Assembly: GCA_036275915.1 (NCBI GenBank)
Contig: DASUCV010000010.1
Span: 1 to 64,000, forward strand
Origin: Candidatus Polarisedimenticolaceae bacterium
GTDB lineage: Bacteria; Acidobacteriota; Polarisedimenticolia; Polarisedimenticolales; DASRJG01
Length of the DNA: 64,000 nucleotides
Direction: 5' to 3'
How positions within the stretch are numbered: position 1 is the first letter of the stretch; each line of letters begins with the position of its first letter. A program made the translations under genes and the position numbers. The notes below the pieces were generated by a model. It ran no database searches, was not told the origin of the DNA, and worked only from the letters and a program-made list of their open reading frames with translations. Positions 11,398 to 26,172 of this stretch are shown here, one piece after another.

Positions 11398-13347
11398 CTA
11401 GCGCGACGCGGCGACGCTCTCCGCTGTTCCGGCCGTGAATCGAATCGCCTTCGTGCCACCGGTGCCGAGCCCCGCTTCGAAGACGTACTCGACTCCCGAG
11501 ACGAGCGTGCCGGGGGGCACGAGGTCGAGATGGCGCGCGCAGCGGTCGTCGCCCGCCGTGACGTCGTCTTCGAAATCCAGAACGACAGCGCCCGACGCGG
11601 CGCGAAGGACGCGCCGGGCGCTCGGCAGCGCGGTCGCGCGCTTGCCGGCGGGAGCGCAGACGGAGGTCAGGATCGCGAGCTCGGAGTGGGGATCGACACC
11701 GGCGTCGAGCAACGGAGCGAACCCGACCGGCGAATCGGAGAGCGTCTTCCCAAGTACCGGACCGATGAGAAACGCAGCGCTCCCGGCCGGCGTGTCCGGG
11801 ACCTCGACCTCGATCGACGTCGCGCGGGGCAACGTGGAGCCCGGATCGGACAACACCGCGGCGACCGTGTACTTACCCGGCTTGAGATCGACGGTCTCGA
11901 TCACCGTCGAGACGACCGGCTCGCCGGCCGCCGGCGTGACGTCGCGCGCCACCTCTTGGATGACGTCCGGTCCGCGGCTCACCGCCGCCTCGAGCTTCGC
12001 GGAGGGCCCCGTCTCGCCGGCAGCGCGCGGCTGGACCGGAAACGAGACGACGAGCTGGGCGCGCCACGTCGAGCGCGAGCGGAGCGAAACCGGGATCAGG
12101 GACGCGTGAACGACGCCCGTGTCGAAAAGGGCGGGTGAGACGTACGCGGCCTGCAGCAAGGACGCGCGCTTCATGGCGTCGGTTCGAGAAGCGAACACGG
12201 CGGCATGCACCGCGTGCAAGCCGGTGGGACGAAGCCAGACCTCGACCGACCGCGGACGGCCGTCGCGCGGCCCATCGTCCTTGAACGACAAGGTGTAATT
12301 CCCCGCCGCGCGCCGGAGCGCCAGGTCGAGCGCCAGGTCGGAAGCGTTGGTGCGCTCCGTCAGCGCGCCGCCCGATTCGACGCCGAGGCGTGCCAGCGGA
12401 ACGATGTGCGGCTCGGCGTACTTGTTGACCTTGACGGTGTAGGGAAGGCCGACGGAGAACTTCGAAGGGGTGGGCCTGGCGTACGTGGCGGCGTTGCGGG
12501 GAGAACTTCCCGGCTCTGGTCTCGGGCCTCAACCACAACCGCCTGCCGTCGCCTGCGAGGCCAGCACCTTGTCGGCCTGCTGTCTCCCCCAATCGGAGGG
12601 CTCGGCCCACGGTGGAGGCGGTGCAGCGGATGGCGGGAGCGCATCGACTTGCAACCCGCGGACGTTGACCGGGTAGATCGTGCACCGCGACGCGGCGGCC
12701 TGCGCGGCGATCTCTCGGAACTGATCCTCGAGCGGAAGGTCCTTCATGTCGGAGTAGAGGACGACTGCCTTCGGTCCCGAGTACGTTCCCAGAAGATCGA
12801 GGAGAGCGGTCATGCCCGCGACGAAGCCGTCCTCGTCGTAGTGCTCGAAAATCCTCGGGAACAAGCTCGAGTCTCGTTCCATCGCGGTCAACGCGGAGTC
12901 GGTCCGGCCGGTGTCGCCGGTGAACGCCTGCTCGACCCGGAGCGATCCGGTCAAGACGCCGACCGACACCGGCGAGCCCGCGGCGCCTCCTTCCGCGATC
13001 GTCTTCCGCGCCATCTCGACGGCGCGCGTGCGATCGACCGGGGCGAGGTGCTGGTAATCGAAGAGGAGCGTGAGGCTCGGCTTCTCGCTTCCGGCGTCGG
13101 GCGTATCGACGGCGACGAGCGGCACGGAGCGGCCGGCGATCGTCAGATCGAAATCGTCCTTCGTGAGGCCCGAGACCACCTTTCCGGCGCGGTCGAGAAC
13201 GACGACGTCGAAGAGCACGAGCTCGGTCTTGACCGACTCCACGAGCCCCTTGCGGAGCGGCTTCGGCTCCGGCGCCGGCTCGGCGGCGAGCGCTGCCCAA
13301 GCAGCGATCGAAGCACCGGCTCCCCAGACGATGAGGTTGCGTCGCAT
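11398..13347 (-). pseudogene. VWFA-related (acidobacterial type) secreted protein interrupted by an in-frame TGA
   Basis: A single frame of 650 codons with a signal peptide (1-22) and one internal TGA at 12531-12529 (codon 273). The N-terminal half has the family hallmark VVVLDRAGKVVSGLTKDDFD (about 47-66), then a von Willebrand A core (LTLLFDYQHL, VVLYSDMKDL, CTIYPVNVRG). Reading resumes in the same frame with RNAATYARPTPSKFSVGL and the typical LARLGVESGGALTERTNASD block. The C-terminal part has beta-sandwich character. Either the gene is truly interrupted, or the TGA is a sequencing error or point mutation (TGG would give Trp). Two compensating frameshifts are possible but less simple. The intact portions would be translated separately only if there is a restart near 12291. 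Confidence 0.75.
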
Positions 13348-13488
13348 CGACGGCCCCCTACGGTTGCCATGACGATACGCCGCAGCCCGCGGTTAGGGGA
13401 ACCCCGAGAGAGGCAGCGCTGCAAATCGCCCGCGCGTCTACAATCGCCGCCTCACGGGGGTGGCGCTCTGAACCTCGAACCCGGCCGG

Positions 13489-16425
13489 ATGCTTCTTCAT
13501 TACCGTCTCATCGAGCGCCTCGGCGAAGGCGGGATGGGCGTCGTCTGGAAAGCGGTCGATACGACCCTCGACCGCGAGGTGGCGATCAAGATCCTGCCGG
13601 CGGCGTTCGCGGCCGACCCGGAGCGGCTGCACCGGTTCGAGCGCGAGGCGAAGGTGCTGGCGTCGCTCAACCATCCGAACGTCGCGGCGGTCTACGGGCT
13701 CCATCAGGCGGACGGGATTCGCTTCCTCGCCATGGAGCTGGTGCGCGGACGGTCGCTCGCGGAGGAGATCCATCGCGGGCTCGTGCCGGGGCGCACGGTC
13801 GAGCTGGCGCTCGCGATCGCGGACGGGCTCGCGGCGGCGCACCGGAACGGGATCGTGCACCGCGATCTCAAGCCGGACAACGTGATGATCGACGCCGAGG
13901 GCCGGCCGAAGATCCTCGACTTCGGCCTGGCGAAGACCGGCGTGGCCGGACCCGCGCCCGATGCGCCGACGCAGCTTCGCGAGCAGACGACGACGCAGCA
14001 GGGCACGCTCATGGGGACGGTCGCCTACATGTCGCCGGAGCAGGCGCAGGGCAAGCCGGTCGATCCGCGCTCGGACGTCTTCTCGTTCGGTATCGTGCTC
14101 TACGAGATGGCGACGGGGCGCCGGCCGTTCGCCGGCGACAACACCGTCTCGACGCTGACCGCGATCCTTCGCGATACGCCCGCGCGCGTCACGAGCGTGG
14201 CGCCGTCGGCGCCCGAGCCGCTCGACAAGATCGTCGCCCGTTGCCTCGAGAAGGACCCGGCGCGGCGCTACGCCGACGCTTCGGGTGTGCGCGACGATCT
14301 GCGCGCGCTCCAGACGCAGCTCATCTCGGCGCCGCTCGGCGCGCGGATCCCGACGCGCACGAAGAGGCTGCTCTTCACGACGATCGGCATCCTCGCTGCG
14401 ATCGAGGTCGCCGTCATGGGCGCGTGCTTCGTACGCAAGCACAACCGCGAGGCGTGGGTCAGAAACGAAGCGCTCCCGCAGCTCCAGTCGATCATCGACC
14501 ACATCCAAGGCCTTCAAGAAGGAAGGGAGGCCTGGGACGCGTGGGTGCTCGCGCGCAAGATCGAGGAGGTCGCGCCGGGCGAGCCGCTCGTCGAGAGCCT
14601 CCGGAAGAAGTTCTCGCGCGAGATCGACATCACGTCGGATCCGCCCGGGGCCGAGGTCGTCGCGCGTTACTACGACGAGCCGGATGCGCCGCCGGTGCCG
14701 CTCGGGAAGACGCCGCTCACGAAGTTCGCTTACCCCCTGGGCTTCACGCGCCTCCATCTCGCCTTGCCGGGGAAGGCGCCGGTCGACGACGTCGTCTGGA
14801 ACCTCAGCCTCGTCGGCGATGCGTGGAGCTACACGTTCCATGCGCCCGGCGAGATCCAAGGCGACAAGGCGTGGATCCCGCCGCAGTCGGGTCCGCTCTT
14901 CATCCCGGGGCTCGACGACCTTGCGCCCGAGCCGACGGTGGCGTTCCTCATGGACCGGCACGAGGTCACGAATCGCGAGTACAAGAAGTTCGTCGACGCG
15001 GGAGGCTACACCGACGCGAAGTACTGGAAGGAGCCGTTCCAGGACGGCGCGCGCACGCTCACGTTCGCCGAGGCGATGGCGCGCTGCGTCGACAGGACCG
15101 GGCGGCCCGGCCCCGCGACGTGGGAGATCGGCGGTTTCCCCGCGGGCCACGACGAGTTCCCGGTCGCGGGCGTGAGCTGGTACGAAGCCGCGGCGTATGC
15201 CGAGTGGGCGGGTGAGCGCCTGCCGACGATCTTCCACTGGAACCGCGTCGCCTTCACCGAGGCCAGCTCGCGCATTATCCCGATGGCCAATCTCGCGGGG
15301 AAAGATCTCGTCGCGGTGGGAACGACGAAGAGCGCCAACCGGTGGGGCGTCTCCGATCTCGCCGGCAACGTGCGCGAGTGGGTCTCGAACCCATCGGGCA
15401 CCGGGAACGATCGCTTCATCCTCGGCGGAGGGTGGAACGATCCCGACTACGCGTTCGCCGACGCGTTCGCGCAGCCGGCGTGGGACCGCGCGCCGACCGA
15501 CGGCTTCCGCTGCATCAAGCTCATCGAGCCCGAGCCGAACCTCGCCAAGCTCGATCGCGCGATCGAGCGGCAGTTCCGCGACTTCAAGAGCGAGAAGCCG
15601 GTCCCGGACGCCGTCTTCGCGCAGTACCTCCGTCAGTTCGATTACGACAAGACGCCGCTCGACGCGAAGATCGAGGAGGAGAAGGAGTTCCCGACCGGCG
15701 TCCGCCAGAAGATCACGTTCAATGCGGCGTACGGCGGCGAGCGGATGATGGCGTACCTCTTCCTGCCGCCGAAGGACAATGCGAAGCCGCCGTACCAGGT
15801 CGTCATCCAGTTTCCCGGCTCCGGCTCGATCGACACGCGATCGTCGGAGACGCTCGATGCGGGCCGCGTCGACTTCCTCGTCACGACCGGCCGCGCGATG
15901 CTCTTCCCGATCTACAAGGGGACCTACGAGCGGGGCGGCGACCTGCACACCGACTATGCGTCGCCGACGGCGCAGTATCGCGACTACGTGACGATGTGGT
16001 CGAAGGACCTCGCGCGCTCGATCGACTACGTCGAGTCGCGGAAGGATCTCGACGCCGGCAAGATCGCCTACTACGGGCTGAGCTGGGGCGGCGCGCTCGG
16101 CGCGATCCTCCCCGCCGTCGAGCACCGGATCAAGTGCAACGTCCTCTACGTCGCGGGCCTGGGATTCCAGCGCGCGCTTCCCGAGGTCGACGTCGTCAAC
16201 TACGTCGGCCGCGTCAAGCAGCCGACGCTGATCCTGAACGGCGAGCTCGACTTCTTCTTCCCCGCCGAGACGTCGCAGAAGCCGATGTTCGATCTGCTGG
16301 GCGCGCCGTCCGCCGACAAGAAGCGCCTCGTCTTCCCCGGCGGCCACTCGGTCCCGCGCACCGAGATGATCAAGGAGTCGCTCGCCTGGCTCGACAAGTA
16401 CCTCGGAGCAGTAAGGGGACAGTAA
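13489..16425 (+). CDS. Ser/Thr kinase - PEGA - formylglycine-generating-like - alpha/beta hydrolase fusion
   Basis: 978 residues. Kinase domain at 1-270: glycine loop LGEGGMGVVW, Lys34 in VAIK, catalytic Asp126 in HRDLKPDN, DFG at 144-146, and YMSPEQAQG. One membrane helix at about 293-316. A PEGA-like domain with DPPGAEV starts near 380. A SUMF1/FGE-sulfatase domain covers about 477-680 (MDRHEVTNREYKKFV, VAGVSWYEAAAYAEWAGERL, WGVSDLAGNVREWVSN, GGGWND). A dienelactone-hydrolase-type domain fills about 690-978, with nucleophile elbow GLSWGGALG and a C-terminal PGGHSVP carrying the His. The ATG may not be the true start: a CTG at 13468, preceded by GGGGG, would add the LEPGRM stretch seen in sister kinases. 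The last codons and the TAA lie inside a palindrome. Confidence 0.9.
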   Translation: MLLHYRLIERLGEGGMGVVWKAVDTTLDREVAIKILPAAFAADPERLHRFEREAKVLASLNHPNVAAVYGLHQADGIRFLAMELVRGRSLAEEIHRGLVPGRTVELALAIADGLAAAHRNGIVHRDLKPDNVMIDAEGRPKILDFGLAKTGVAGPAPDAPTQLREQTTTQQGTLMGTVAYMSPEQAQGKPVDPRSDVFSFGIVLYEMATGRRPFAGDNTVSTLTAILRDTPARVTSVAPSAPEPLDKIVARCLEKDPARRYADASGVRDDLRALQTQLISAPLGARIPTRTKRLLFTTIGILAAIEVAVMGACFVRKHNREAWVRNEALPQLQSIIDHIQGLQEGREAWDAWVLARKIEEVAPGEPLVESLRKKFSREIDITSDPPGAEVVARYYDEPDAPPVPLGKTPLTKFAYPLGFTRLHLALPGKAPVDDVVWNLSLVGDAWSYTFHAPGEIQGDKAWIPPQSGPLFIPGLDDLAPEPTVAFLMDRHEVTNREYKKFVDAGGYTDAKYWKEPFQDGARTLTFAEAMARCVDRTGRPGPATWEIGGFPAGHDEFPVAGVSWYEAAAYAEWAGERLPTIFHWNRVAFTEASSRIIPMANLAGKDLVAVGTTKSANRWGVSDLAGNVREWVSNPSGTGNDRFILGGGWNDPDYAFADAFAQPAWDRAPTDGFRCIKLIEPEPNLAKLDRAIERQFRDFKSEKPVPDAVFAQYLRQFDYDKTPLDAKIEEEKEFPTGVRQKITFNAAYGGERMMAYLFLPPKDNAKPPYQVVIQFPGSGSIDTRSSETLDAGRVDFLVTTGRAMLFPIYKGTYERGGDLHTDYASPTAQYRDYVTMWSKDLARSIDYVESRKDLDAGKIAYYGLSWGGALGAILPAVEHRIKCNVLYVAGLGFQRALPEVDVVNYVGRVKQPTLILNGELDFFFPAETSQKPMFDLLGAPSADKKRLVFPGGHSVPRTEMIKESLAWLDKYLGAVRGQ

Positions 16426-18543: not shown

Positions 18544-20214
18544 TCACCGCGGCGCGCTGGCAGCTTTCTCCGCCAGCGTCGCCGTGGTCTTCTCGGGCTC
18601 GCTCTTGCCGTCGATCCGCGACAGATAGGGCATGAGCGGGGTCACCTGGAACGGCATCTTCTCCCGCGCCGAGACCAGGGCGATCTTGGCTCCCGGCATC
18701 AACGAAGCAGCCGCCGTCCACGGGTCGACGCGGACGCGGCCGCCGAGCGGAAGCGCCGCGATCTGCGTGATCGAGCCGGGGTCGAGCGCCGGCGCGGCGT
18801 CGACGATCGGCGCCATGCGGTAGACCTGGCCGTTCCCGAAGTGGGGCTGGATCAGGTACGGGAGCGCGCTCGCCTGCGCTTGCAGCGCCTTGAAGAAGAG
18901 GCCCGCCGCGGCGAGCTTGTCCTTGTAAGGCGAGTTCTTGAGGAGCGCCACGGCTTTCGCGTCGGCTTCCATCTCCTCCTGCGGCGTCCGCTCGAACTGG
19001 AAGCGCGCGACCGCCTCGCGATCGCCGACGAGCACGCGGTCGGTGAAGGCGTAGCGCGTGTCCAGCTCGTGGCCGGCCATGACGTGGCCCAGCTCGTGGG
19101 CGACGATCGCCGCGAGACTCGCTTCGTCAGGCAGCACGTCGATGAGGCCGCGGGAGAGGACGATCGTGCGTCCGATCGTGAACGACTCGAGAGGCGTCGT
19201 CAGCAGGACGCGGCAGTGCACCGGCGGATCCATCTCGAGGTTGTTCGTGACTTCGAGATTGTTGACGACGGTCTCGAGGATGGCGTCGAGCTTCCCCTTC
19301 GGTGCCAGGAGGCCGGCGTCCGTCAGGCGGCGCACGACGTTCTCCTCCGCCTCGAGCTGCCACTGCCTCGCCGCCTCGACCGGTGACGTCTGCCCGGAAC
19401 CGTCGCTCGCGTCGTGCGCGACGGGGGTCTCGAGCATGACCTTCGTGAACTCGTCGTCCGCGTCGGGCTTTTCGAGCTGGTACCCCCAGACGCGGATCTG
19501 CCCGCGGTACGAGAGGTTGAGCTGCCGCGACGTCTTGTCGGCCTCCTCGGTGTACACGTACGACGGGAGCCACTGGCCCTGGCCGACGTTCGTCCGCCAG
19601 CTGTCGAAGTGGAAGTTGGCGGCGAGGCTCGAGGCGTAGATCCCGTTGTAGCGCACGATGCGATAAGCCTGGTCCTCGACCCAGATCCGGCCGGTGAAGC
19701 GCCCGGGGCGGTAGCGGTCGAGCGGCTTTCCTTCCTTGGGCGTCACGTCGAAGACGAGCGTGCGAACGTCGCCGAGGAACTCCGAGCGCAGGAAATGGAA
19801 CTCGTACGTGTTGCGGTCGAACGACCCGCGATCGAGGAGGAGCATGCGGGAGAAGTCCTCCGGCTTGAAGACCGCCGAGTGGAAGTCCTGGAGGAGCGAG
19901 AGCGTCTGCTTGTTCTTCTTGTCGGACTTCTTCTGCTTCGCGGGCTCGCCCGTGGACGCGAGCTCGAGCCGTCCGAAGAAGTAGTTGTCCCTCACGGGGA
20001 CGAAGCCCAGCGCCGCATCCGGCTTGACCGTCTGGACGTACGTCTCGACGACCGGCCGGTGCGACTCGAGGAGGACGGCGAGCGCCTGCTCCCCTGCGAT
20101 CGCGGCGTCGAGGACCTGATCCATGCGCGCCGAAGGCGCGTCGGCGGCCGGAGGCGCCGCCGCGGCGGCGGGCAGAACGGCGAGAAAGCCCCACATCACG
20201 ATTGCGGTTCGCAC
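18544..20214 (-). CDS. M48 family metalloprotease, secreted
   Basis: 556 residues from the GTG at 20214, which has GGGAGGAG upstream and opens a signal peptide (RTAIVMWGFLAVLPAAAAA). The zinc motif is HELGH at 373-377, inside AAIVAHELGHVMAGHE, with the third ligand region in EMEADAKAVALL. The N-terminal 320 residues form a long beta-rich domain (GRFTGRIWVEDQAYRIVRYN near 171) that is not part of the usual M48 core and resembles outer-membrane lipoprotein sensor folds. Starts 19 nt after the TonB gene and so is probably the last gene of the six-gene operon. A role in envelope protein quality control is inferred. Confidence 0.88.
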   Translation of the reverse strand: MRTAIVMWGFLAVLPAAAAAPPAADAPSARMDQVLDAAIAGEQALAVLLESHRPVVETYVQTVKPDAALGFVPVRDNYFFGRLELASTGEPAKQKKSDKKNKQTLSLLQDFHSAVFKPEDFSRMLLLDRGSFDRNTYEFHFLRSEFLGDVRTLVFDVTPKEGKPLDRYRPGRFTGRIWVEDQAYRIVRYNGIYASSLAANFHFDSWRTNVGQGQWLPSYVYTEEADKTSRQLNLSYRGQIRVWGYQLEKPDADDEFTKVMLETPVAHDASDGSGQTSPVEAARQWQLEAEENVVRRLTDAGLLAPKGKLDAILETVVNNLEVTNNLEMDPPVHCRVLLTTPLESFTIGRTIVLSRGLIDVLPDEASLAAIVAHELGHVMAGHELDTRYAFTDRVLVGDREAVARFQFERTPQEEMEADAKAVALLKNSPYKDKLAAAGLFFKALQAQASALPYLIQPHFGNGQVYRMAPIVDAAPALDPGSITQIAALPLGGRVRVDPWTAAASLMPGAKIALVSAREKMPFQVTPLMPYLSRIDGKSEPEKTTATLAEKAASAPR

Positions 20215-20233
20215 TGCGTCTCCTCCCTCGAGG

Positions 20234-21298
20234 TCATGCCAGCCGGAAGACCACGCGCAGCCTCGCGGCATGGTCGACCGGCGTGCCATCCCGTTTCGCC
20301 GGAACGAACTGGATCTTCTTCGCGGCCGCCGCGGCGGCTTCGTCGAGCCCGTGGCCGAGACCGGACGCCACGCCGATCACGCGCACCGTCCCCAACGCTT
20401 CGAAGACGACGTCCAGGACGACGTCGCCCTCGAGGTGGAGCGCGCGCGCTTCCTCGGTGTAGACCGGCTTCGGCTTCGTAAGGATCTCGACGTCGGTGTC
20501 GTCGACCGACGGCGGCCGCGTGGCCTCGGCGTCGCGCTTCTTGGGCGCCGCCTCGGCGTCGAACGCCGCCGCCTTGACCGAGGTGGCCGGCGCCGAGCGT
20601 CCCTTCGTCTTCGTCGATGCCTCTTCGAACGCGGCCTGCACGACGCGGCCTGAGCGCGCCGCGGTCCCTGTGCCGCCGGCCGTGCCGCCGTCGAACCCCG
20701 CGCCGACGACGACCGGGGAGCGGGACGTGCGCGATGCGACAACGTTCGGAGCCGCGGGAGACTCGTCGAGGAGGCCGACCTTCACCTCGGGCTTGGGCTT
20801 CGGCGGCTCCGCTTTCACGATCTCGGGAACCGGCTCCGGCTTCGCGACCGGCTTCGGCGCCTCGGCGACCGGCGGGGGCGGCGGTTCCTCGCGGGGCTGC
20901 TCGAGCCTTGCCTTGGGCGCCGGCTTCGGCAACGGCTTCGGTGCCGCCGGCGCGAGCTTCACCTCGGGAACCTTCGGCGGCTCCATGGCGAGCACGATCT
21001 CGATCGGGAGCCGAGGGTCGTCGATCGACTGCACGTGCTTCGGCATGAGGACGACCACGACGACGAGGAGCACGTGCGCCGCGATGCTCACCGCGACGAC
21101 GATCTTCCGTTTCCGCTTCGCGGCCGGCGGCGTCTCCGCGAACAGGGGCGAGAACTGGACGCGCGGCGCTCGCTTCACGACGCGGAGGCGCTGGTCGATC
21201 GCGCGCTCGAGGTCGGCGAGCGGAGCCGATTCTGCGAGGGGAATCGACGAGGGACGCCGGAACCTCAACACCTCTTTCGAGGTTAGATCAGGTTTCAC
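20234..21298 (-). CDS. tonB: TonB family energy-transducer protein
   Basis: 354 residues from GTG at 21298, overlapping the TGA of the preceding lipoprotein gene (GTGA). A cytoplasmic segment of about 60 residues precedes the single helix (KIVVAVSIAAHVLLVVVVVL, about 66-85), which carries the conserved-type His75. A Pro/Lys/Ala-rich periplasmic spacer follows (about 105-190). The C-terminal TonB domain is clear: PKPVYTEEARALHLEGDVVL then DEAAAAAAKKIQFVPAKRDG. TonB couples proton motive force through ExbB/ExbD to outer-membrane receptors; no exbBD is in the window. The long cytoplasmic N-terminus is unusual. Its partner could be the beta-barrel encoded two genes upstream. Confidence 0.9.
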   Translation of the reverse strand: MKPDLTSKEVLRFRRPSSIPLAESAPLADLERAIDQRLRVVKRAPRVQFSPLFAETPPAAKRKRKIVVAVSIAAHVLLVVVVVLMPKHVQSIDDPRLPIEIVLAMEPPKVPEVKLAPAAPKPLPKPAPKARLEQPREEPPPPPVAEAPKPVAKPEPVPEIVKAEPPKPKPEVKVGLLDESPAAPNVVASRTSRSPVVVGAGFDGGTAGGTGTAARSGRVVQAAFEEASTKTKGRSAPATSVKAAAFDAEAAPKKRDAEATRPPSVDDTDVEILTKPKPVYTEEARALHLEGDVVLDVVFEALGTVRVIGVASGLGHGLDEAAAAAAKKIQFVPAKRDGTPVDHAARLRVVFRLA

Positions 21299-21702
21299 TT
21301 CGCGCCCTCGTCGATCCAGGAGGCGACGAGATCGATCTGAGCCTGCGAGAGCGGGCCGCCCGAGAGCGGCATCTGCTGGCCGCCGATCGCCGGGTTTCCG
21401 GTGATCTTCCAGTACATGTACGAGTTGGCGGAGTCGCCCGGCAGGACGCGCTTCATCGACGCGTTCTCGCCGCTGTCGACGTTGACGAGGTGCGCCGCCG
21501 ACGCGGAGACGCTGCTCATGTCGAGGCCGAAGGGCGCACCGGTGCCGACGTGACAGCCGGAGAGCGCGCATCGCGGCGTCAGAACCTGCGTCTGGACTTC
21601 GAGGAGCGTCGTGCGGCCGCCGTTCCCGGTGACCGGGTTCGAGGGACCGCCGCACGCCGATGCGAGCGCCGCCACGGCGAGGACGCTCGCTCGGACCTTC
21701 AC
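21295..21702 (-). CDS. Cytochrome-like lipoprotein with CX4CH motif
   Basis: 135 residues. GTG start at 21702 overlaps the stop of the beta-barrel gene (GTGA). The N-terminus is a lipoprotein signal ending at ALASAC (Cys17). The motif CALSGCH (45-51) has four residues between the cysteines, not the two of a classical haem c site. It is followed by HVGTGAPFGLDMS, and later by QMPLSGGPLSQAQIDLVASW, where a Met could be the axial ligand. Small proteins with this pattern are often annotated as cytochrome c-like in Planctomycetes and Acidobacteria. Haem attachment is therefore plausible, not shown. Confidence 0.8.
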   Translation of the reverse strand: MKVRASVLAVAALASACGGPSNPVTGNGGRTTLLEVQTQVLTPRCALSGCHVGTGAPFGLDMSSVSASAAHLVNVDSGENASMKRVLPGDSANSYMYWKITGNPAIGGQQMPLSGGPLSQAQIDLVASWIDEGAK

Positions 21703-23138
21703 CACGACACGGCCGCCGAGAGCACGAGCTTGTCGAGCTGGATCGTGCGGCGCGAGCCTTCCGGGATGCCGATCGGGATCGGGTTCGACGGCGCGGCCTC
21801 GCCGGTGAGCCACGCGAGGTCGAGCGTGACGTTCGCGAGCACCGTCTCGAGGCCGATCGCGAACTGCGCCGCGGTGAGCGTCGCCTTGTCGTTCTGGGAG
21901 CCGGTGTCGAACGTCGTCTTCGTCTGCGAGTCCAGGAGATCGGCGTGGCCGCTCACGATGATCCGCAGCTTGTCCTTGAAGAGCGGCTGGCGGACGCCCA
22001 GGGTCAGGCCGAGCGCGATCTGCGAGTCGTCGATCTCCTCGCGGACGGGCGTGCCGGCGGCGTCGACGTCCGAGCTTCCGCTCGCCTTGTCGTAGCCGAG
22101 GCGCGCGCCGACGAACATCTCGGTCTCTCCCGCCTGGAAAATCATCCGCGCCGAGCCGAAGCCCGAGAGGGTCGTGATCGGGTTCTGGCCGAGGAGGGTC
22201 GTGTCCGGCGTGACGACGCCGCCGGTCTCGGACGAGGCGAGGTCGGAGTTGCCGAGCTTGCGCTGCGACCACGAGAGGCCGCCGCGGTACTCGGTCTCGC
22301 CGAGCCCTTCCTTGCGGAGGCGGTTGTAGCCGCCGGTCACGCCGAAGCTCAGATCGTTGATGTCGTAGTTCGTGCTGGTGAAGCGATCGGTGACGGCGCC
22401 CGTGTCGTCGATGTCCTCGCTGTAGACGTCCTTCGTGGAGCTGCCGTAGCCGAGGACGCCGTCGATCTCCCAGCTGCTCGTCGGCGTGAGGAAACGGCGC
22501 ACGCCCGCGTCGGCGGAGATGTCGAGCTGATCGAAGTTGTCGACGCCGTTGAAGCCCCCGACCCCGGGCGCGAAGTTCGAGCTGGTCGCGTCGTGCCTCG
22601 CCCAGACCGTGCGCAGCCCCACGCCCAGCACGGTGCTGTTATTGAGCTGGAACGCGGCACCGCCGCGGACGTCGGCGGACTTGAGATCGTTGTTGTCGTC
22701 GAACGTCTGCCCACCGGACGTGGCGTCGCTCTTGATCGTGCCGGCGAGGACCGCCGCCGAGAGGCCCCACGCGAACGTCCCGGTCTCGCGCCGGATCATC
22801 GTGCCGTTGATCGCGTCGGCCTGGTTCTCGACGCCGGTCGCTCCGTTGTTCCCGATGACCCCGTCGACGTAGCGCGCGTAGCTTCCCTGCTGACCGGGCC
22901 ACGCGCCGAAGTTCGACATCCGCGCGATGTTGGCGAAGAGCAGGTTGTACGGCCGCGTCTGCAGCTCGTCGAACGGCGTCCGGTAGGTGTCGAACGTCAG
23001 CTCGTTCAGAACCGAGCGGCCGAACGTGAGAACGAACGTCGGCGTGTCGGCGAGCTCGCGCGTGACCGCGTGCGCGCTCGTGGCCGCCGGCCCCCCGACC
23101 AGAAGGACGAGTAAGGCTCCCCCTCGTGACAGACGCAT
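21699..23138 (-). CDS. Outer-membrane beta-barrel protein
   Basis: 479 residues, with a signal peptide (MRLSRGGALLVLLVGG, cleaved near AHA) and GGAAGGAG upstream of the ATG at 23138. The sequence is a series of amphipathic strands rich in Gly, Thr and aromatic residues (for example TFAWGLSAAVLAGTIKS, SFGVTGGYNRLRKEG, EMFVGARLGYDKASG), and it ends in Trp (LVLSAAVSW), a usual outer-membrane barrel terminus. I do not recognise a named porin family. The ATG lies 1 nt after the DUF1501 stop, so the two are co-translated. Confidence 0.82.
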   Translation of the reverse strand: MRLSRGGALLVLLVGGPAATSAHAVTRELADTPTFVLTFGRSVLNELTFDTYRTPFDELQTRPYNLLFANIARMSNFGAWPGQQGSYARYVDGVIGNNGATGVENQADAINGTMIRRETGTFAWGLSAAVLAGTIKSDATSGGQTFDDNNDLKSADVRGGAAFQLNNSTVLGVGLRTVWARHDATSSNFAPGVGGFNGVDNFDQLDISADAGVRRFLTPTSSWEIDGVLGYGSSTKDVYSEDIDDTGAVTDRFTSTNYDINDLSFGVTGGYNRLRKEGLGETEYRGGLSWSQRKLGNSDLASSETGGVVTPDTTLLGQNPITTLSGFGSARMIFQAGETEMFVGARLGYDKASGSSDVDAAGTPVREEIDDSQIALGLTLGVRQPLFKDKLRIIVSGHADLLDSQTKTTFDTGSQNDKATLTAAQFAIGLETVLANVTLDLAWLTGEAAPSNPIPIGIPEGSRRTIQLDKLVLSAAVSW

Positions 23139-23139
23139 C

Positions 23140-24567
23140 TCATGCGCTCCTTCCCGCCGTGAGGGCGGTTCCCGCGAGAAGAGGCGGCGTGGACGAGCCC
23201 GGCGTCCAGAACCGCCCGATGTTCGGCAAGATGACGTCGAGGTCGGCGGTCGACACGCCGAACCAGACGGCGAGCTGGGCGAAGTACTCATCGACCGACG
23301 TCGTCGGGATGAGACGCCCGCGCCCCGTGTCGAGATCGTTCCCGGCGTAGAGGCTCGGATACGAGCCGTAGAGATCGCCGCCCGGGATCGCGGGGCCCAT
23401 GACGATGTGGTTCCCGCCCCACGCGTGGTCGGAGCCCCGGCCGTTCGAAGTGAGCGTGCGGCCGAAGTCCGAGGCGGTGAACGTCGTCACCGCGTCCGAG
23501 ACGCCCAGCTCGACGAGCGCCGCGTGGAACTCGGAAAGCGCGTGGCTGACGATCGGGAGCATCGTCGATTGGTTGAGGATGACCTCGTCGTGCATGTCCC
23601 AGCCGCCCCAGTCGATGAAGAACGTCTGGCGCTTCATGCAGAGCGCCTCGCGCGCGGCGATCGTCATCGCGATCATCCGGAACTTGCGCGAGAGCGACGT
23701 GTTCGAGAACTGCGTCTGGAGGGGCGGGATCGACGCGAGCGCGTTCGAGAAGTCGACCTGGGCGTCGATCGCGCCGCGCATCTTCGCCGCGAACACCTTC
23801 TCGAAGAGGTGCCGGTACTGGAGCGCGAGCAGGCTGTCGACCGCGTCGGTGCGCACCATCGCCGAAGGCGACGTGCCGCGATAATCCCAGAGCGGCACCG
23901 CGCCGTTCTCGCTGATCGTGTAGTGGCTCGTCATCCGGCCCGACTGCCAGATGTTGTTCCCCGAGAGCGAGATGTTCATCCCGATGTTCGGGTCGCAGTT
24001 CCCGCTGTCCATGACGTCGGCCATCCGGCCCGCCCAGCCGATCGGCGAGCGCTGATCGGGGATCCCCGACTGCCACGCCATCTGCTGGTCGGAGTGCGAG
24101 AAGAGGCCGACCGGAAGATTGGCGGTCCCGCGCCGGTAGGCGTCCAAGGTCGTCGGCTCGGCGAGGGTGCCGAGGTTGGCGACCAGGCCGAGCTGGCCGG
24201 CCGCGAAGAGCGCCTGCAGCTCGGGGAGCCCGGGGTGGAGCCCGTACGTCTTGCCGTCGGGAGTGGCCGGCGTGATCGGGAGCAGGACGTTCTGCGGGAG
24301 CGCGAGGTCGCCGCGGACCGCGGCGTACTCCTGGTGCTCGGCGTCGCCCAGGGGGACGAGCACGTTGTACGAGTCGATCCCGCCCGAGAGGAACAGGCAG
24401 ACGAGCGCACGGTAATCGTCGGTGGGCGCCGCGAGGGCGTTGAACATCCGCAGGTTGAGGATCGTGTTGAAGAGCGCCGTCGTCCCCACCGCGGCGCAGC
24501 TCGCCTGGCCCAAGAACCGGCGGCGGTCTCGGCGGGGGACGTCGCCCTGTCGGCGTCGTGTCGTCAT
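23140..24567 (-). CDS. DUF1501 family Tat-exported protein
   Basis: 475 residues. A twin-arginine signal (RRDRRRFLGQASCAAVG) at about 12-28 predicts folded export. DUF1501 features are LVCLFLSGGIDSYNVLVPLG (about 55-74), LFSHSDQQMAWQSG, FFIDWGGWDMHDE, and TTFTASDFGRTLTSNGRGSD near the C-terminus, which resembles the metal site of alkaline-phosphatase/sulfatase-like folds. The reaction is unknown. It follows the DUF1800 gene by 12 nt; DUF1800 and DUF1501 genes are commonly paired in Planctomycetes, Acidobacteria and Proteobacteria. Confidence 0.92.
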   Translation of the reverse strand: MTTRRRQGDVPRRDRRRFLGQASCAAVGTTALFNTILNLRMFNALAAPTDDYRALVCLFLSGGIDSYNVLVPLGDAEHQEYAAVRGDLALPQNVLLPITPATPDGKTYGLHPGLPELQALFAAGQLGLVANLGTLAEPTTLDAYRRGTANLPVGLFSHSDQQMAWQSGIPDQRSPIGWAGRMADVMDSGNCDPNIGMNISLSGNNIWQSGRMTSHYTISENGAVPLWDYRGTSPSAMVRTDAVDSLLALQYRHLFEKVFAAKMRGAIDAQVDFSNALASIPPLQTQFSNTSLSRKFRMIAMTIAAREALCMKRQTFFIDWGGWDMHDEVILNQSTMLPIVSHALSEFHAALVELGVSDAVTTFTASDFGRTLTSNGRGSDHAWGGNHIVMGPAIPGGDLYGSYPSLYAGNDLDTGRGRLIPTTSVDEYFAQLAVWFGVSTADLDVILPNIGRFWTPGSSTPPLLAGTALTAGRSA

Positions 24568-24579
24568 CGCATCATCCCC

Positions 24580-26172
24580 TTAGTTGAGGACCGCGTACTC
24601 GGGCGCGATCGAGATGAGCTGGAGCGCGGTCATGACCCGCTCCTGCGGATCGGGGAGCTGCTCGAGCGCGTGGACGAGGACGCCGCGCATCGGGTTCGAC
24701 ATCGTCCCGTACATGAGGAGCAGGTCGAGGCGGTTGACGAGCGCGAGCGGATCCGAGGCCAGCCCCATCTCGTCGGTGAGGTCGAGCCGCACCTCGAGCG
24801 CGTCGTTCGGGTCCGAGTTCAGGGCGCCGCGAATCTCGGAGTTCAGCGCGTTCGCGCTCGTGATCGCGGTCACCGCGGTCACGATCTGGAACTCCGGTGC
24901 CACGAGGCCGGCGTCCGCGATGATCCCGGTCGGCTGGTAGTCCGGGAGGAAGAAGTTGAAGACGGTCGGGGACGAGAGCGGCCGCTGGCCGAAGTCGTCC
25001 GGGGCGCCGCCATCCGAGATGGGCCAGGTCCCGGCGAGGTTCTTCGCGTCGAACGCGCGCGCGAAGTGGACGCGCCTGAGGAACGACTCGCGCAGCATCC
25101 CCTTCGTGATGCCGCCGGCGGTCGGCCACGCGCGCGCTTCCGGGTCGAGCAGGATCGCCGTGATGACCGCCTTCATGTCGCCTCGCACGCCGCGGCCGTT
25201 GTTGGCGAACGCGGCCGCGACCCGGGCGACGTACGCCGGGCTCGGATTCGACGTCACGAGGCGCTGGATGAGCCGGCGCGAGAGGAACGGGCCGACGTTC
25301 GGGTGCCGGAAGAGGTTGTCGATCGCGGCGTCGACGTCCTGCATGCCGGTCTGCCCGGCCGGCACGTATTTTCCGCGGAGGAGATACTTCGGGCCCGGCT
25401 CGTGGTGCTCCTCGTACATCCGCATCGGCGCGGTCCAGTTCTCCTGGCCGCGGTAGAAGTCGCGGTCGGCGCCGTCGAACGAGAGGCCGGTGAAGATCTT
25501 CGCCATCTCGGTGATCTGGTCGTTGGTGTAGGTCGGGATCGGCCGCCCCTTGCCGTCGCGCAGGAGCGTGCCGTTCGACCGCAGCTGGAAGAGGCCGATC
25601 GAGAAGAGCTGCATGACCTCGCGCGCGTAGTTCTCGTCGGGGTACCGCCCGCTCGCCGGATCGGACTTGTCGTTCCGCAGGTGGCTCAGGTAGGCGCCCA
25701 TCATCGGATGGAGCGAGATGTCGTGGAGGAGCGTCCTGTAGTTCCCGAACGCGTTCCGGAGCAGCATGTCGTAGTAATTCGCCGCGCCGATCGGCTGAGC
25801 CCCAACGTCGCCCTGGACGTCGGAGATCACGAAGATCTCGGAGAGCGCGAGCGCGACGCGCTGCCGGAGCGGATCGGGCCCCTCCATGACCTGCTGCCAC
25901 CACGCGTAGCGGCGCTCGTCGGAGCCGACGGAGAGCCCTTGGCGGAGGCGGTCGTCCAGGAACGGCTCGTGGTAGCCGATCGGTCGCGCGAACTGGTCCT
26001 GGAGCCACAGCGTCGGCGTCGTGCGCGCGGTTCGCTGGATCTCGGCGTAGTCGGCGCCGAGCGTCGCCTGCGCGAGGAAGCGGGAGGCTTGGGCAGGCGT
26101 CATCGCGGCATGGGCGGATCCCATGAGAACGAGCGCCATGAGGACAACGATGGGACGCCGCATGCGCGGCAT
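24580..26172 (-). CDS. DUF1800 family protein
   Basis: About 530 residues; the start could be 26172 (MPRMRRP) or 26163, and neither has a strong ribosome-binding site. A signal peptide ends at GSAHA. DUF1800 hallmarks run from FLAQATLGADYAEIQ (about 31) through RVALALSEIFVISD and NYYDMLLRNAFGNYRTLLHD to ENYAREVMQLFSIGLFQL, then FLSRRLIQRLVTSNPSP. The function is unknown; the helical protein is exported. It is the first gene of a six-gene set with tiny or negative spacings down to 18544. Confidence 0.9.
   Translation of the reverse strand: MPRMRRPIVVLMALVLMGSAHAAMTPAQASRFLAQATLGADYAEIQRTARTTPTLWLQDQFARPIGYHEPFLDDRLRQGLSVGSDERRYAWWQQVMEGPDPLRQRVALALSEIFVISDVQGDVGAQPIGAANYYDMLLRNAFGNYRTLLHDISLHPMMGAYLSHLRNDKSDPASGRYPDENYAREVMQLFSIGLFQLRSNGTLLRDGKGRPIPTYTNDQITEMAKIFTGLSFDGADRDFYRGQENWTAPMRMYEEHHEPGPKYLLRGKYVPAGQTGMQDVDAAIDNLFRHPNVGPFLSRRLIQRLVTSNPSPAYVARVAAAFANNGRGVRGDMKAVITAILLDPEARAWPTAGGITKGMLRESFLRRVHFARAFDAKNLAGTWPISDGGAPDDFGQRPLSSPTVFNFFLPDYQPTGIIADAGLVAPEFQIVTAVTAITSANALNSEIRGALNSDPNDALEVRLDLTDEMGLASDPLALVNRLDLLLMYGTMSNPMRGVLVHALEQLPDPQERVMTALQLISIAPEYAVLN

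Follow-up and report, generated by a model that had tools for sequence, protein, structure and literature searches.

Six adjacent genes for envelope proteins, found in a 64,000-nucleotide stretch of an Acidobacteriota genome (Candidatus Polarisedimenticolaceae bacterium, assembly GCA_036275915.1, contig DASUCV010000010.1, positions 1 to 64,000; hereafter the window), form, judging from their sequences, a unit conserved within a small group of this phylum. They encode a DUF1800 protein, a DUF1501 protein, an outer-membrane beta-barrel, a lipoprotein, a TonB-family protein and an M48 metalloprotease (Table 1). The operon combines two old modules, TonB-M48 and DUF1800-DUF1501; the genes between them encode a barrel found only in this taxonomic order and a cytochrome.

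Table 1. The operon and its genes, in window coordinates and in gene order.
Feature	Position	Strand	Characteristics
Six-gene operon	18544-26172	-	all genes co-directional; order DUF1800, DUF1501, barrel, lipoprotein, TonB, M48
DUF1800 protein, 530 amino acids	24580..26172	-	Pfam PF08811, E 5.9e-84, 283 bits; N-terminal signal/hydrophobic segment
DUF1501 protein, 475 amino acids	23140..24567	-	Pfam PF07394, E 1.1e-28, 101 bits; Tat (twin-arginine)-type signal RRRFLG; conserved Asp/His
Beta-barrel protein, 479 amino acids	21699..23138	-	signal peptide; C-terminal W; only a sub-threshold FadL-type Pfam match
Lipoprotein, probable mono-haem c-type cytochrome, PSCyt1-like	21295..21702	-	CX4CH and distal Met (MP)
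TonB-family protein	20234..21298	-	PF03544 (TonB_C), E 1.9e-12; one N-terminal transmembrane helix, Pro-rich linker, TonB_C
M48 metalloprotease	18544..20214	-	PF01435, E 2.1e-8; HELGH; signal peptide; conserved N-terminal region of ~300 amino acids

An initial annotation, made from the letters alone, had described six genes separated by 12, 1, -4, -4 and 19 nucleotides, and recomputing these spacings reproduced them exactly. The lipoprotein, TonB and M48 genes start with GTG. We compared the six operon proteins and five flanking window genes with loci of relatives by tblastn. The identical six-gene order is present in G001, from the same family, and in G007, G009 and G003 (another family, same order), where the operon proteins are 40-68% identical to those of the window. 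The five flanking genes are not conserved beside the operon copies in these four relatives, the one weak local match being the kinase-fusion gene in the G009 locus (E 3e-5). As four other genomes of the order thus share the gene order without the window's flanking genes, the arrangement is not due to chance. Overlapping or near-touching gene starts are mostly preserved as well; the stop-start overlap of lipoprotein and TonB, for example, is retained in G001, and G003 comes close to it. Six of the ten genomes of the order have orthologues of DUF1800, the barrel and M48 alike, and all three are missing from the remaining four; the carriers are related, and their joint occurrence does not represent six independent events. 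Turnover of the flanks, taken with this all-or-none distribution, is nevertheless an argument that the genes work as a unit. The initial annotation had treated the operon as one unit and looked to other Acidobacteriota for co-occurrence, and on both counts it was upheld, by the conserved order and overlaps and by the four further genomes of the order that hold all six genes.

Outside the order, the two ends of the operon occur separately. Of 247 sampled genomes of the phylum, 31 encode M48 proteins that share the long N-terminal region, and a TonB-type gene adjoins M48 in all ten loci that we read outside the order (L096-L105), before M48 in nine and after it in one. None of these ten loci carries DUF1800 or DUF1501, and TonB-M48 appears to be a module spread over distant Acidobacteriota. 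The window's DUF1800 and DUF1501, both above the Pfam cut-off and adjacent with DUF1800 first, likewise match a common arrangement: DUF1501 directly follows DUF1800 in 20 of the 21 other DUF1800 loci of the phylum. The barrel, cytochrome, TonB and M48 are absent from the stretch read in all 21, so that the link of DUF1800 and DUF1501 to the other four genes, on which the initial annotation depended, holds inside the order and fails outside it. Within the order, the complete genome of Acidobacteria bacterium Mor1 (G005, CP011806) has DUF1800-DUF1501-barrel at 1.07 Mb, TonB-M48-ExbB-ExbD-ExbD together at 2.22 Mb and the lipo-cytochrome at a third site, 4.26 Mb, apart from both. It is because each module recurs without the other, and because Mor1 splits at the module border, that we describe the operon as two-modular.

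These distributions also bear on the main rival to a single complex, namely that two systems share one promoter and are co-regulated but otherwise independent: DUF1800, DUF1501, cytochrome and barrel on one side, and on the other a TonB-ExbBD of general use, with an M48 of its own, serving ordinary TonB-dependent receptors. The separate occurrence of the modules in the 10 and 21 loci, and above all their split in Mor1, favour this rival, as do the eight plug domains, which mark plug-bearing receptors, in the window genome (G000). It must contend, however, with a canonical TonB-ExbB-ExbD-ExbD cluster on contig C10 of the same genome, which already supplies a general TonB, with the joint presence or absence of barrel and M48 across the order and with the lipoprotein/TonB overlap preserved in relatives. 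We consider it possible but somewhat unlikely.

In G007, G009 and G003, exbB-exbD-exbD lies directly after M48, giving a nine-gene form. As these genes continue the operon in three relatives, energisation of the operon system by TonB is well supported at the level of sequence, and the TonB-energised process put forward in the initial annotation gains further from TonB-M48-ExbBDD in Mor1. A look for exbB and exbD elsewhere, which it had also suggested, yields linked genes in those three relatives and only unlinked candidates in the window genome. Four ExbB-type proteins are encoded there, one on contig C20, one in the separate canonical cluster on C10 (at about 180 kb) and two more distant. The C20 protein is accompanied by two exbD genes and shares 57% identity with ExbB from the G007 operon; this ExbBDD set is a possible partner of the operon's TonB, or it is possibly a separate envelope motor. 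Its genes (L073, 107-117 kb) lie downstream of a gene for a 1004-amino-acid TPR protein. An ExbB tree places the operon ExbBs, the C20 protein and the C10 protein near one another and does not resolve the partner.

Like known TonB-ExbB-ExbD systems, the operon encodes a TonB_C domain, an N-terminal transmembrane helix and a Pro-rich linker, and in three relatives it includes exbB-exbD-exbD; the hydrophobic segment of the window TonB starts at about residue 63. It differs from them in that it has no TonB-dependent receptor, that M48 adjoins TonB in every locus inspected and that exbBDD is unlinked in the window genome. In M48, the HExxH and a downstream E/D are invariant, and PF01435 is found in four of four aligned members. 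The pairing of TonB and M48 across distant Acidobacteriota suggests a TonB-coupled protease, and we found no description of a TonB-coupled M48 protease in the literature searched.

The barrel is the most restricted component. Its orthologues are 41-57% identical, and the family, present in six of the ten genomes of the order, was not seen outside it (four of 247 phylum genomes positive, all within the order); a pattern scan of GTDB genomes recovered only three loci, all in genomes already known from our comparison. The model of the barrel has about 15 long strands, with about 60 residues between the signal peptide and the first strand, and is of low confidence (mean predicted local distance difference test score, pLDDT, 58). 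Pfam finds no plug domain (PF07715) in it, and we rejected its assignment as a TonB-dependent receptor. The redox-linked, TonB-energised outer-membrane process outlined in the initial annotation is supported as to the unit, the energisation and the redox component; contact between TonB and the barrel would be a further assumption. A lone distant paralogue, 30% identical, lies at 3.88 Mb in Mor1 (L095:10196-11740), next to a DUF4388 gene and without DUF1800 or DUF1501.

If the barrel were instead a FadL-like channel through which hydrophobic compounds diffuse passively, and the envelope enzymes its accessories in lipid or hydrocarbon use, then TonB would be incidental. The barrel does share with FadL/TodX channels a weak sequence match and FadL-like matches of its model, FadL being among the top Foldseek matches, and in G031, from another family, a gene for outer-membrane phospholipase A1 comes after DUF1800-DUF1501. 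The Foldseek scores are, however, about 0.3 (template-modelling score) on a low-confidence model, with TonB-dependent receptors, FapF and others scoring alike. In addition, the N-terminal region is not recognisable as a FadL hatch, and the Pfam match to FadL/Toluene_X (PF03349) reaches 17.6 bits against a cut-off of 29.7; with the model too weak to help, we rejected established membership of that family. We regard the passive channel as quite unlikely.

The lipoprotein has no Pfam match, and neither it nor its orthologues match PSCyt1 (PF07635) directly. An alignment of five orthologues shows an invariant lipidation-type Cys, an invariant C-X4-C-H and an invariant Met-Pro near the C terminus. 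CX4CH probably serves for haem attachment, with two residues inserted into the motif, the Met is probably the distal ligand, and the operon lipoprotein is probably a mono-haem c-type cytochrome; cytochrome c assembly proteins are encoded in the window genome. The redox step foreseen in the initial annotation is supported to this extent. Relatives of the lipoprotein elsewhere have mostly CX4CH and in a few cases CX2CH. A second copy of the CX4CH lipoprotein gene in the window genome, on contig C9 (L134:6863-9110), is flanked by genes for a cytochrome c and a likely outer-membrane barrel.

With a cytochrome gene overlapping a barrel gene, as it does in the window, the two proteins could form a mono-haem porin-cytochrome unit that carries electrons at the outer membrane or through it, with DUF1800 and DUF1501 only aiding assembly. 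Such pairs recur in other genomes of the phylum: in G067, G079 and G141 (L136-L138), the gene after a CX4CH lipoprotein gene encodes a DUF5777-type outer-membrane barrel (by Pfam for G067 and G141, by similar sequence only for G079). MtrAB-type conduits likewise combine an outer-membrane barrel with a c-type cytochrome, but theirs is a multihaem periplasmic wire, whereas the operon cytochrome is lipid-anchored and has one haem site, too few to span the outer membrane as MtrA-type proteins do. A multihaem conduit was rejected on this single CXnCH motif, and the Mor1 barrel has no adjoining cytochrome, which leaves the mono-haem unit decidedly improbable.

In G086, two long PSCyt1-PSCyt2-PSD1 proteins match the profile of the lipoprotein at their N-terminal regions (E 1.2e-7 and 9.3e-8), which Pfam assigns to PSCyt1 (planctomycete cytochrome C domain). 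We also compared a profile of 26 DUF1800 sequences with one of ten PSCyt2-PSD1 sequences and obtained a match of 75 columns (E 3.1e-4, score 43.2). Controls scored lower, with 20.7 for reversed PSD, at most 20.4 for five other profiles and at most 27.6 for 60 column shuffles; with shallow alignments, P was 0.014 only. These scores are suggestive of remote homology between DUF1800 and PSD1 (DUF1553) through a common conserved core. PSCyt-PSD proteins are used by a planctomycete and verrucomicrobial gene set (PMC5615132), and in locus L113 a reading frame that by eye is DUF1501-like adjoins a PSD1 gene. The window genome encodes no PSD1 (PF07587) protein and has DUF1800, in single copy, instead. 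Like the PSCyt1-PSCyt2-PSD1 plus DUF1501 set of planctomycetes, Verrucomicrobia and some Acidobacteriota, the operon has DUF1501, a PSCyt1-like cytochrome and, in DUF1800, a core resembling that of PSD1; unlike it, the operon encodes the cytochrome as a lipoprotein of its own, with CX4CH rather than CX2CH, has no PSD1, and adds a barrel and TonB. Because of the PSCyt1 match and the core common to DUF1800 and PSD1, the operon looks like a rearranged relative of the planctomycete PSCyt1-PSD1-DUF1501 set, wired to a barrel and TonB.

DUF1800 orthologues from five genomes of the order are 61-68% identical, and the AlphaFold model of the protein is almost wholly helical (mean pLDDT 66.5, predicted template-modelling score 0.74). 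In DUF1501, the motifs RRxF, GGxDxxN, GxDxH, FxR and GxDH are invariant in nine sequences, the twin-arginine signal among them; the invariant Asp and His residues are D65, D324, H326, D380 and H381. GGxDxxN, GxDxH and GxDH fit a metal site of the alkaline-phosphatase superfamily, to which DUF1501 may belong. A structure search found no solved relatives of DUF1501.

The pair keeps other company elsewhere. It adjoins bacterial chitin synthase genes in other genomes (PMC5122149), where the same two Pfam families are adjacent and DUF1501 has a Tat-type signal; there the neighbours are chitin synthase and a sugar epimerase, and in the window they are the barrel, lipo-cytochrome, TonB and M48. The phospholipase A1 gene of G031 (L037:10389-11345; PF02253, E 2e-103) directly follows the pair on the same strand and encodes another outer-membrane barrel. 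We found no experimental work on the function of DUF1800 or DUF1501, which are little mentioned in the open-access literature.

We tentatively favour a model in which the two joined modules make one periplasmic and outer-membrane complex for redox-linked processing or transport, energised by TonB. In module A, the periplasmic DUF1800-DUF1501 pair would work with the outer-membrane barrel and the lipid-anchored mono-haem cytochrome. DUF1501, exported folded via Tat, would probably be a metal-dependent hydrolase or transferase of alkaline-phosphatase type, and the pair and cytochrome would carry out redox-linked processing of an envelope or extracellular compound (a glycan, lipid or metal complex) passing the barrel. 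Module B would consist of the TonB protein and the M48 protease, driven by ExbB-ExbD. TonB may power the opening or resetting of the outer-membrane part, and M48 may trim, process or clear outer-membrane proteins of the system.

Several observations weigh against such a complex. In Mor1 the modules lie apart and the cytochrome at a third site, so that one complex is not required. In the window genome and in G001, of the same family, no exbBDD adjoins the operon, and we rejected the C20 exbB as the named partner, as the tree does not resolve orthology. As the barrel is plugless, TonB may act on other receptors; the model of the barrel, moreover, is weak. DUF1800 and DUF1501 are themselves without known function. 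That the operon is a new uptake or export system, as the initial annotation ventured, is possible and not established.

A bolder reading, which we hold to be doubtful, is that DUF1800 and DUF1501, the CX4CH lipo-cytochrome and a non-receptor barrel make up a new TonB-energised outer-membrane machine, a redox-driven complex for import, export or surface modification with M48 as the dedicated partner of TonB, and that a single family, usually accompanied by DUF1501, has DUF1800 and PSD1 as its branches. The components are of known kinds; for the combination, the nine-gene form, the TonB-M48 pairing and the PSCyt1/PSD1 link, we found no description in the literature searched, which was mostly without subscription journals. 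DUF1800 and DUF1501 are widespread. Their conserved neighbourhood of TonB, barrel and cytochrome genes assigns them to the outer membrane, connects them with energy supply and redox chemistry and makes their function testable. The PSCyt1/PSD1 link would further connect the pair to an equally mysterious set of planctomycete proteins.

Elsewhere in the window, a long plus-strand frame at 12205-16425 combines Ser/Thr kinase, sulfatase-modifying-factor and weak alpha/beta-hydrolase domains in one protein; translation probably begins at a site far within it.

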